From assembly GCA_026196105.1 (NCBI GenBank), contig JAPHRK010000026.1, positions 1-36,931 of the forward strand: 36,931 nt of DNA, written 5' to 3'. Under the pieces are notes generated by a model. That model was not told the DNA's origin. It searched no databases and saw only the letters and a list, made by a program, of their open reading frames with translations. Below, piece after piece: positions 22,792 to 29,126 of the stretch (position 1 is its first letter; every line of letters starts with the position of its first letter). Source of the DNA: Rhodospirillales bacterium (GTDB lineage Bacteria > Pseudomonadota > Alphaproteobacteria > Rhodospirillales > JAPHRK01). Made by a program: the position numbers and the translations under genes.

Positions 22792-22824
22792 AAAAGAAAA
22801 GGGCAGTTCCAAGGAACTGCCCTT
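22792..22824 (-). terminator. Terminator at the end of the ribosomal protein cluster
   Basis: AAGGGCAGTTCC and GGAACTGCCCTT form a perfect stem (22799-22810 with 22813-22824), followed on the minus strand by TTTTCTTTT. It is 26 bp after the rplQ stop and marks the end of the long translation operon before htrA. Confidence 0.93.
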
Positions 22825-22849
22825 TCTAACTTTATCTGAAATACGATGC

Positions 22850-23303: not shown

Positions 23304-23321
23304 GATCTCGCGCACGAGATC
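23304..23321 (-). repeat. Hairpin in the rplQ leader
   Basis: GATCTCG and CGAGATC pair perfectly around a CGCA tetraloop, 22 bp upstream of the rplQ start. It may be a leader structure or processing site between rpoA and rplQ; 7-bp repeats are common by chance. Confidence 0.35.
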
Positions 23322-23406
23322 GAACAAAAAACCAAGCCGCCACCCTTAAAAAGGATGTACGGCCTAGCAGACCATCATGGTCAATTTAGTCTAGTTTCGA
23401 AGAAAC

Positions 23407-24423
23407 CTAGAAAGGCTCTTCTAATCTCTTCGCCAAATCTTCAACATTCTCTGGTGGCCAGTTAGGAATTTCCATTCCTAAGTGAAGTCCCATCTGAGCC
23501 AAGACTTCCTTGATCTCGTTGAGGGATTTACGACCAAAGTTCGGCGTGCGTAGCATTTCGGCTTCGCTCTTAAGAACTAGATCACCAATGTAGATGATGT
23601 TGTCGTTCTTAAGACAGTTGGCGGAACGAACAGAAAGTTCGAGTTCGTCAACTTTACGCAGAAGATTTTTATTGAATGGTAGTTCGTCTTCAGCTTTCTC
23701 TTCCGTTTTCGCTTCTGGCTCTTCAAAGTTAATGAATTGACGAAGCTGGTCTTGAAGAATGCGAGCAGCCAAAGCAACGGCATCTTCAGGGGTTACGGAA
23801 CCATCCGTATCCACGGTGAGGGAAAGTTTATCATAATCGGTATCTTGTCCAACGCGAGTATTGTCCACTTTGTAAGAAACCTTACGAACGGGAGAATAAA
23901 GAGCGTCGACAGGGATAAGACCAATCGGTGAGTCTTCGCTGCGGTGAGCAGAAGCAGCCACATAGCCCTTACCGGAATCGACCGTAAGTTCCATGGATAC
24001 TTTAGCACCGTCATCAAGAGTACAAATCACCAAATCAGGGTCCATGACTTCGATATCGTGACCGGTATCAATGTCGCTGGCTTTAACAACGCCAGGGCCT
24101 GTTGCGTCAAGACGCATACGTTTGGTGCCTTCGCTACCAATGCGAAGTCCCATGTTCTTGATGTTAAGGATGATATCGGTAACGTCTTCATGAACGCCCG
24201 GAATGGACGAAAACTCATGCAATACGCCTTCGATCTGAATTGCCGTAATTGCAGCACCCTGCAATGACGAAAGAAGGACACGGCGTAAAGCGTTGCCGAG
24301 AGTGAGACCGAATCCACGCTCTAAGGGCTCAGCAACGAGAGTAGCCGTACGGCTTGCATCGTTACCAGGCTTGATATCCAGCTTGGTCGGTTTAATCAGT
24401 TCTTGCCAGTTGTTCTGAATCAC
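23407..24423 (-). CDS. rpoA: RNA polymerase alpha subunit
   Basis: The 338-residue protein has the alpha N-terminal assembly domain ([19 protein letters not shown] near 33-51 and [13 protein letters not shown]) and the C-terminal DNA-binding domain ([14 protein letters not shown] and [12 protein letters not shown]) joined by an acidic linker near 235-250. It nucleates polymerase assembly and contacts activators. The start codon is GTG at 24423. Downstream of rpsK by 108 bp, a longer space than elsewhere in the cluster, which holds a direct repeat and a short inverted repeat. A small stem-loop overlaps its stop codon. Confidence 0.98.
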
Positions 24424-24474
24424 GAGGTGACCTCAAGCACGAGTTTCTAGTACATGGCGCTTTAACACGCCAAT

Positions 24475-24503
24475 GACCGGCCCCAAAAACGGCGACCGGC
24501 CCC
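24475..24503 (-). repeat. Tandem GGGGCCGGTC repeats in the rpoA leader
   Basis: GGGGCCGGTC occurs twice, 19 bp apart (24494-24503 and 24475-24484), in the 108-bp gap between rpsK and rpoA. A short inverted repeat TGGCG...CGCCA at 24455-24472 follows it. These may be protein binding sites or leader structures. Confidence 0.4.
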
Positions 24504-24531
24504 GAAATAAAAGCGTCGGTAATGCCGAGGG

Positions 24532-24939: not shown

Positions 24940-25308
24940 TTACTTCTTCTTGCCGGGAATAGCGCGAGCCTTCCCTTTGCGTGTACGAGCGTTGGTGGAC
25001 GTCCTTTGACCGCGAACCGGAAGCCCGCGACGATGACGCAAACCACGGTAACAACCGAGGTCCATCAAACGCTTAATGTTCATCGCCACTTCACGACGGA
25101 GATCGCCTTCTACCTGATAATCAGCATCAATGGTTTCACGAATACGAACCACTTCATCATCTGTCAAATCAGATACACGACGTTCAGCAGTAATGCCGAC
25201 TTTACCGCAGATTTCCTGCGCTTTAGCCTGGCCAATGCCATGGATATAGGTAAGCGATATTACAACTCTTTTTTGAGTTGGAATATTTACGCCAGCAATA
25301 CGAGCCAA
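24940..25308 (-). CDS. rpsM: 30S ribosomal protein S13
   Basis: 122 residues starting with the canonical (M)ARIAGVNIP; the central THIHGIGQ-like segment is [13 protein letters not shown], and the C-terminus has [20 protein letters not shown] and a basic tail. S13 lies in the head of the small subunit at the bridge to 5S/L5. The start codon is TTG at 25308, supported by AGGAG eight bases upstream and by the fixed N-terminus. It is the first gene after a perfect-consensus promoter in the adk-rpsM space. Confidence 0.98.
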
Positions 25309-25372
25309 AGCTGGTACTCCTCAGTACGAATTTCAAATACAAAAACGATGTCTAGGTACGACAAGAGGCGCG

Positions 25373-25400
25373 ATTATAGGGAGGAAATCCTCCCTGTCAA
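25373..25400 (-). promoter_or_regulatory. Perfect-consensus promoter before rpsM with palindromic spacer
   Basis: TTGACA (25395-25400) and TATAAT (25373-25378) are both perfect sigma-70 boxes with a 16-bp spacer. The spacer, GGGAGGATTTCCTCCC, is itself an inverted repeat whose arms reach one base into each box (AGGGAGGA and TCCTCCCT). The start point would be near 25366, giving a leader of about 57 bases before rpsM. Confidence 0.88.
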
Positions 25401-25409
25401 CACACTCTC

Positions 25410-26054
25410 TTAACCAAGTATCGCATTCAACTCTTTAGTGACCTCGTCTATAGGGGCCATGCCATCCACAGTCCTCAGCAAATCCCGTTCTTCATAGTAA
25501 GGCAGGATAGGTGCCGTCTCATTGTGGTAGGCTTCCAACCGGGAACGAACAGTTTCTTCATTGTCGTCTGCCCGGCGAGAAAATTCAGTAGCGCCACACT
25601 TATCACAAACACCTTCTTTCGAAGGTTTTTCAAATTCATCATGATACCCTTGGCCACATTTAGCGCAGGTATAACGACCAGTGATTCGTGCAACGAGTAA
25701 TTCATCATCAACTTTCAGCGACACACAATAGGTGAGCTTCAAGCCTTTTTGTTCCAGCATGTCGGTCAGAGCTTCAGCTTGATTAACTGTTCTCGGAAAA
25801 CCGTCAAGAATGAAACCATTCTTACAATCATCTTGATCAATACGATTGGCGACAATCGATATGATCATTTCGTCTGAAACAAGTTTCCCTGCTTCCATCA
25901 ATCCCTTTGCTTCAACACCAAGGTCACTTCCTGAAGTGACTTCAGCCCGCAGCATATCTCCAGTGGAAAGTTGCACAATGCTATAGCGGTCTTCTATTCG
26001 TTTAGCTTGTGTGCCCTTTCCGGCCCCCGGAGGGCCCAGAAAAACTAAATTCAT
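25410..26054 (-). CDS. adk: Adenylate kinase, zinc-type LID
   Basis: 214 residues with P-loop GPPGAGKGTQ at 7-16, STGDMLRAEV and DGFPRTVNQAE in the core. The LID is the long form with four cysteines (CAKCGQGYHDEF and CDKCG), the pattern of zinc-binding adenylate kinases. It interconverts ATP + AMP and two ADP. It overlaps secY by four bases (ATGA), as in many alphaproteobacteria, and is followed by the rpsM promoter. Confidence 0.98.
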   Translation of the reverse strand: MNLVFLGPPGAGKGTQAKRIEDRYSIVQLSTGDMLRAEVTSGSDLGVEAKGLMEAGKLVSDEMIISIVANRIDQDDCKNGFILDGFPRTVNQAEALTDMLEQKGLKLTYCVSLKVDDELLVARITGRYTCAKCGQGYHDEFEKPSKEGVCDKCGATEFSRRADDNEETVRSRLEAYHNETAPILPYYEERDLLRTVDGMAPIDEVTKELNAILG

Positions 26055-28772: not shown

Positions 28773-29126
28773 TTAGAACTGAAGACCGGCTTCACGGGCG
28801 GCGTCGCCTAACGCCTTGACACGGCCGCGATACATATAACCACCACGATCGAAAACAACATCTGTAACGCCAGCTTTTACGGCGCGTTCAGCGATCAGTT
28901 TACCAACAGCAGCAGCAGATGCAACATCAGTGCCTCTTCCCTTGAAATCTTTTTCAAGGGAAGAGGCAGCAACCAGAGTTACGCCTTTGCTATCGTCAAC
29001 AAGCTGAGCATAGATGTGTTTGCTCGAACGAAATACGGATAAACGGGGGCGTGAGCCAGCCGCTTTTCTGATTTTGTTGCGGGTCCGCATTGTGCGGCGC
29101 GCAAAAAGTTCTCTCGATGATTTCAT
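28773..29126 (-). CDS. rplR: 50S ribosomal protein L18
   Basis: 117 residues with [17 protein letters not shown] near 26-42 and the C-terminal [21 protein letters not shown]18 binds 5S rRNA together with L5. The middle segment [11 protein letters not shown] is encoded by a perfect 17-bp inverted repeat, yet the protein aligns with relatives through this part without an obvious insertion. It follows rplF by two bases. Confidence 0.97.
28931..28968. repeat. Perfect 17-bp inverted repeat inside rplR
   Basis: Bases 28931-28947 (TGCCTCTTCCCTTGAAA) pair with 28952-28968 without mismatch, around a four-base loop TCTT. On the rplR transcript it would form a very stable hairpin in the middle of the coding region. 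A stem of this length is not expected by chance in 37 kb. Confidence 0.9.

Follow-up and report, generated by a model that had tools for sequence, protein, structure and literature searches.

The site studied lies where the spc ribosomal-protein genes meet the alpha ones, in the 101-bp gap (25309-25409) between adk and rpsM of the window, i.e., the whole stretch of 36,931 nucleotides that was analysed. According to the preliminary description, this gap contains an exact TTGACA-16-TATAAT promoter on the minus strand, and the promoter spacer is an inverted repeat that reaches one base into each box. All of these features were reproduced at 25400-25373. Both boxes are exact and are separated by 16 bp, and the dyad is an 18-mer with perfect 8-bp arms that takes in the last base of the -35 box and the first base of the -10 box. 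The features of the locus, in the direction of transcription, are as follows:

25410..26054, minus strand: adk, the upstream gene; its stop codon TAA (25412-25410) lies 9 nt before the -35 box
25362..25412, minus strand: larger imperfect hairpin in read-through RNA, from folding of the sense RNA
25395..25400, minus strand: -35 box TTGACA, exact match; of the 317 genomes of the order, 176 keep TTGAC 5' of rpsM
25378..25395, minus strand: spacer dyad AGGGAGGA-TT-TCCTCCCT, arms 25395-25388 and 25385-25378; as RNA, 7 pairs and a 4-nt loop
25373..25378, minus strand: -10 box TATAAT, exact match, conserved in relatives
25367..25372, minus strand: discriminator CGCGCC, G+C only, shared with the 3' arm of the outer stem; mostly G/C in 101 divergent relatives
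25363..25366, minus strand: TCTT, predicted to contain the start (+1 near 25366); the pyrimidine tract is kept among relatives
24940..25308, minus strand: rpsM, the first gene behind the promoter, with a TTG start at 25308

Perfect boxes with a spacing of 15-18 bp were expected 0.02 times in the window on the basis of dinucleotide shuffles, so the chance figure of approximately 0.01 given earlier was adequate for the window. It did not hold when carried to the genome. The whole genome (3.9 Mb) contained three perfect sites versus two for the pattern read backwards, which served as the control. Because the genome-wide count was near chance, perfect boxes alone prove little and were rejected as stand-alone evidence. 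Position and conservation were more informative. The exact motif TTGAC-(17-18)-TATAAT was found 50-80 bases before the rpsM start in 176 of the 317 genomes of the order, and the reversed control was found in none. A search of 60 relatives for TTGAC-17-TATAATSNCG gave 38 matches, 36 of which were placed by position just 5' of rpsM, and in the class sample exact boxes preceded rpsM in 48 of 385. Both boxes with 16-18 bp between them, together with a position before the gene that is conserved in relatives, are what is looked for in a sigma-70-type promoter. Therefore, from its position and order-wide conservation, the site, which immediately follows adk, is predicted with confidence to be a real primary-sigma (sigma-70 type) promoter serving the alpha operon, rpsM-rpsK-rpoA-rplQ. 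These observations also support the earlier suggestion that this group of genes could be expressed apart from the spc genes.

In the 101 divergent relatives, six mostly G/C positions after the -10 box were followed by positions 7-10 that were 94-97% pyrimidine. The start region of relatives approximates YYTT behind a nearly exclusively G/C discriminator, and C or U as the first nucleotide would be unusual.

The main alternative to a functional dyad is that the site is a plain promoter and that the symmetry is a coincidence, aided by the G-rich sequence after the -35 box, the C-rich sequence before the -10 box and the choice of target. Indeed, promoters of this family often have G following TTGAC and CC preceding TATAAT, and the window contains 13 dyads with arms of 8 bp or more (loop 2-8), which are thus not rare. 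The unusual part is that this dyad is centred on the single perfect promoter of the window. Furthermore, approximately 20 of the 27 families lack the spacer dyad. However, the coincidence was poorly compatible with a test on 153 distinct spacers, whose left and right halves were re-paired with column composition retained. Stems of at least 5 pairs were observed 23 times (8.5 expected), stems of at least 6 pairs 10 times (1.5 expected) and stems of at least 7 pairs 5 times (0.14 expected); for an 8-pair stem, approximately 0.05 were expected among the 153 re-paired spacers. After removal of near-identical spacers (63 left), there were 5 stems of at least 6 pairs versus 0.57 expected and 3 of at least 7 pairs versus 0.07 expected. 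The coincidence also has to contend with dyads with altered arms, which recur in the same frame in approximately 7 families. It was judged to be rather unlikely.

These dyads were compared at the order level; this genome was the only member of the window's family and genus in the comparison. Family f4 contains, in the shared 18-nt frame, both AGGCGTGAAATCACGCCT (AGGCGTGA-AA-TCACGCCT) and AGGCGCGAATTCGCGCCT, a T:A to C:G change, and family f16 contains AGGAAGGATTTCCTTTCT and AGAAAGGATTTCCTTTCT, which differ by a G-U versus an A-U pair; the dyad AGGGCGACGAATCGCCCT of family f22 also occupies this frame. Among the dyads with changed arms are AGAAAGGA-TT-TCCTTTCT and AGGAAGGA-TT-TCCTTTCT, both in one family other than f4. 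Slightly further in are set the dyads AGGGAGCACACTCCCT (f10), AGGCACTTTGTGCCT (f19) and CGCAATGTCATTGCG (f31). The arm sequences recorded also include AGGGAG-CACA-CTCCCT and AGGGCGA-CGAA-TCGCCCT, and one additional family has CGCAATG-T-CATTGCG. When the flanks of six dyad loci and of the window were read, rpsM was found to follow in all 7.

In an alignment of carrier families only, which had been picked for having the dyad, 30 double-change cells were counted versus 12.0 (sd 2.9) expected, and controls with slid partners gave at most 17. Compensatory changes were thus present on both sides of pairs, and the unselected re-pairing test and the chimera test described below agree with this. Covariation of the spacer arms across the adk-rpsM space of relatives, proposed earlier as a check, was therefore seen in the carrier families, but most families have no dyad at all; at the family level, among order-level relatives, the symmetry is lost while the boxes persist, a pattern that the preliminary description had named, for close relatives, as a refutation. 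The signal of spacer symmetry was gone once families f1, f4, f16, f22 and f10 were dropped. The spacer dyad thus characterises only a minority of families.

Nor do promoters of this type have it in general. A stem of 6 pairs or more was seen at only one of 38 other TTGAC-17-TATAAT sites, and this site was itself another rpsM promoter, which leaves 0 of 37; general occurrence was rejected on this basis. The contrast between rpsM and other sites gave a Fisher p of 0.08-0.13, with few controls, many of which are perhaps not promoters, and so dyad enrichment at rpsM promoters relative to other sites of this type is suggestive only. In other orders of the class, there was a weak excess of stems of at least 4 pairs (p 0.005) and no clear excess of stems of at least 5.

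Complementarity was found to extend beyond the spacer. The sense RNA of 25420-25361 folded with -25.7 kcal/mol (z -4.85), and none of 200 shuffles was as good. The fold is two-tiered: the spacer arms form the inner stem, 25412-25401 pairs with 25372-25362 in the outer stem, and TTGAC lies opposite ATAAT in a 5x5 internal loop. In absolute energy, this hairpin ranks 11th among the non-overlapping 60-nt folds of the same strand of the window. In some relatives, other registers are used. One locus (L144) has a perfect stem of 11 pairs, GAGGCGCGATT-TCATAT-AATCGCGCCTC, with the -10 bases in the loop, another (L104) has 9 pairs in a similar place, and in a third (L199) 9 pairs surround the -35 box (ATTTGCGCA...TGCGCAAAT).

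The halves of 101 divergent loci were then compared with GC-matched chimeras in which the true partner half was replaced by a foreign one. At the promoter, the real halves folded 1.92 kcal/mol better than the chimeras on the sense strand (p=2e-5) and 1.24 kcal/mol better on the antisense strand (p=0.016, split +4), whereas no effect was found 15-25 nt upstream in the same loci. Two earlier scans of 48 loci agree with this test, and the structure scan peaks at the promoter. Without the spacer-dyad families, the effect was weaker (p=0.003), and it was absent once the spacer-dyad families and those with a hairpin around the -10 box were both dropped. Therefore, the property is recurrent and not universal. 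In a strand test of RNA versus DNA, G-U and A-C were counted 6 and 2 times, respectively, in few cells. Hairpin strength did not correlate with the distance from adk to the promoter (Spearman 0.04). In relatives, structure and matched halves were also in excess, though more weakly, close to where adk ends, 60-80 bases 5' of the spacer centre.

The position of the signal bears on a purely mutational origin, in which template-switch correction of imperfect palindromes would produce the symmetry without selection. Free variation of the arms and drift of the register between families are in line with such a bias. However, little or no signal was found 15-40 nt upstream or 40-90 nt downstream, and the signal 60-80 nt upstream was weaker; this origin was considered improbable.

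An operator, the first of the two options in the preliminary description, fared worse. A dimeric repressor or activator would bind the spacer dyad in this lineage, and a perfect 8-bp dyad between the boxes is the type of site where operators are known. However, the genome of 3.9 Mb contains no second site with at most one mismatch, the arms vary between families and even inside one family, and the 16-bp spacing lacks the stretch expected of MerR-type sites. Arms that change while pairing stays argue against a conserved protein site. The option was not supported, as the arms have no further copy in the genome, vary from family to family and are missing from most families although the boxes persist, and an operator with a regulon was rejected, its half-site being neither conserved nor reused; binding of a dimeric regulator is very unlikely. 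Equally unlikely is an action of the symmetry in DNA, as a supercoil-driven cruciform or a spacer shape tuning promoter opening: the spacer complementarity does sit between the boxes, and the antisense advantage over chimeras is expected if complementarity itself matters, but arms of 7-8 bp are short for cruciforms, the hairpin lies around one box instead in some families, and the effect is larger, if modestly so, on the sense strand.

The other option of the preliminary description, a hairpin formed in RNA that continues from adk through the site, is tentatively favoured by the co-variation of the halves and the somewhat larger effect on the sense strand. Transcription from the upstream spc genes would yield an RNA stem-loop with the spacer arms as the inner stem and the sequence flanking the boxes as the outer stem. 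RNA begun at the promoter, with +1 near 25366, would not contain the spacer stem or the left arm of the outer stem, and so the hairpin could form only in adk read-through RNA. That the site combines an alpha-operon promoter with a selected hairpin in spc-adk read-through RNA is put forward tentatively, from sequence comparison, as the best explanation, at slightly less than even odds. The conservation of the promoter and the excess and co-variation of complementary halves were computed; that the hairpin acts as RNA, and in what role, is inferred.

The likeliest and most economical role for such a stem-loop would be to mark or protect the 3' end of the spc-adk message, or to insulate the alpha-operon message at its start; it could, for instance, block 3' exonucleases following factor-dependent termination or processing. 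It is proposed that the stem-loop was placed in promoter DNA because the gap is short. This role as the end or insulator of the spc-adk message is possible, and is held with somewhat less confidence than the selected hairpin itself. The reading in full, namely, that one stretch both drives a ribosomal operon as its promoter and, in read-through RNA, supplies a stem-loop ending or insulating the previous message, the boxes being fixed and the hairpin being rebuilt with new letters and registers in different families, must be regarded as doubtful.

Should the stem-loop act in read-through RNA, compact ribosomal-protein clusters could fit the end of one message inside the promoter of the next, which would be a simple means of separating tandem operons 101 bp apart. 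The drift of the register around fixed boxes makes the idea of a dual role testable. The case would then also caution against taking every promoter-spacer dyad for a repressor site. No report of such an element was found in the literature searched, from which subscription papers were mostly absent.

Other structures were observed in the cluster and in relatives. The rpsK-rpoA gap (24424-24531, z -2.6) and the rpoA-rplQ region (23320-23410, z -4.3) are both strongly structured on the sense strand, and neither contains an Rfam family at threshold. Therefore, intergenic hairpins are usual in this cluster. The alpha operon ends in a canonical intrinsic terminator behind rplQ (22797-22826), consisting of a 13-bp hairpin and a T run. 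Inside an rplR-like ORF (28773-29126, minus strand), there is a perfect 17-bp hairpin with a 4-nt loop (28931-28968, TGCCTCTTCCCTTGAAATCTTTTTCAAGGGAAGAGGCA); on either strand, no other 60-nt fold of the window is as stable. In three f16 relatives (L102, L103 and L107), the rpsM leader contains an attenuator-like hairpin with a U-run, GGTAAGT...ACTTACCTTTTTTATTTTT, approximately 30-60 bases after the -10 box. In L085, L087 and many other relatives, a CCAAAG motif 5' of the ribosome binding site is able to pair with CTTTGG at the TTG with which rpsM begins; this may be a leader structure that covers the start. This pair of motifs is absent from the window, which has GTACT-GAGG-AGTAC around the rpsM ribosome binding site instead.

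In E. coli, the alpha-operon promoter lies just before rpsM, and the alpha genes can be expressed apart from the spc genes. The site described here resembles it in the presence of a promoter just before rpsM that would separate alpha from spc genes; it differs in that adk lies upstream, the boxes are perfect, the spacer is a dyad and no rpsD follows rpsK. MerR-type operators likewise have a dyad in the promoter spacer, between the -35 and -10 boxes, with a spacing of approximately 19, whereas here the spacing is 16 and there is neither a conserved half-site nor a second site. The Alpha_RBS or S4 ribosomal leader (RF00140) shares the location upstream of rpsM. This candidate was rejected, with 25 bits against a gathering score of 38 and an alignment that covered only the ribosome binding site and the rpsM start and contained no pairs. 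No Rfam family reached the gathering score in the window, Alpha_RBS, FsrA and FinP being below their thresholds. A survey of ribosomal leaders (PMC7247131) includes leaders of rpsM from Clostridia and Fusobacteriales; from Alphaproteobacteria, it lists none for this gene. Finally, intrinsic terminators and 3' stabilising stem-loops between tandem operons are similar in that a G+C-rich stem-loop stands directly behind the upstream stop codon. A stem is present here, but no terminator was called there, and the stem is followed by a pyrimidine tract of only 4 nt; a canonical intrinsic terminator was rejected for want of a U-tract. A further difference from these elements is that here the stem is made of promoter DNA.
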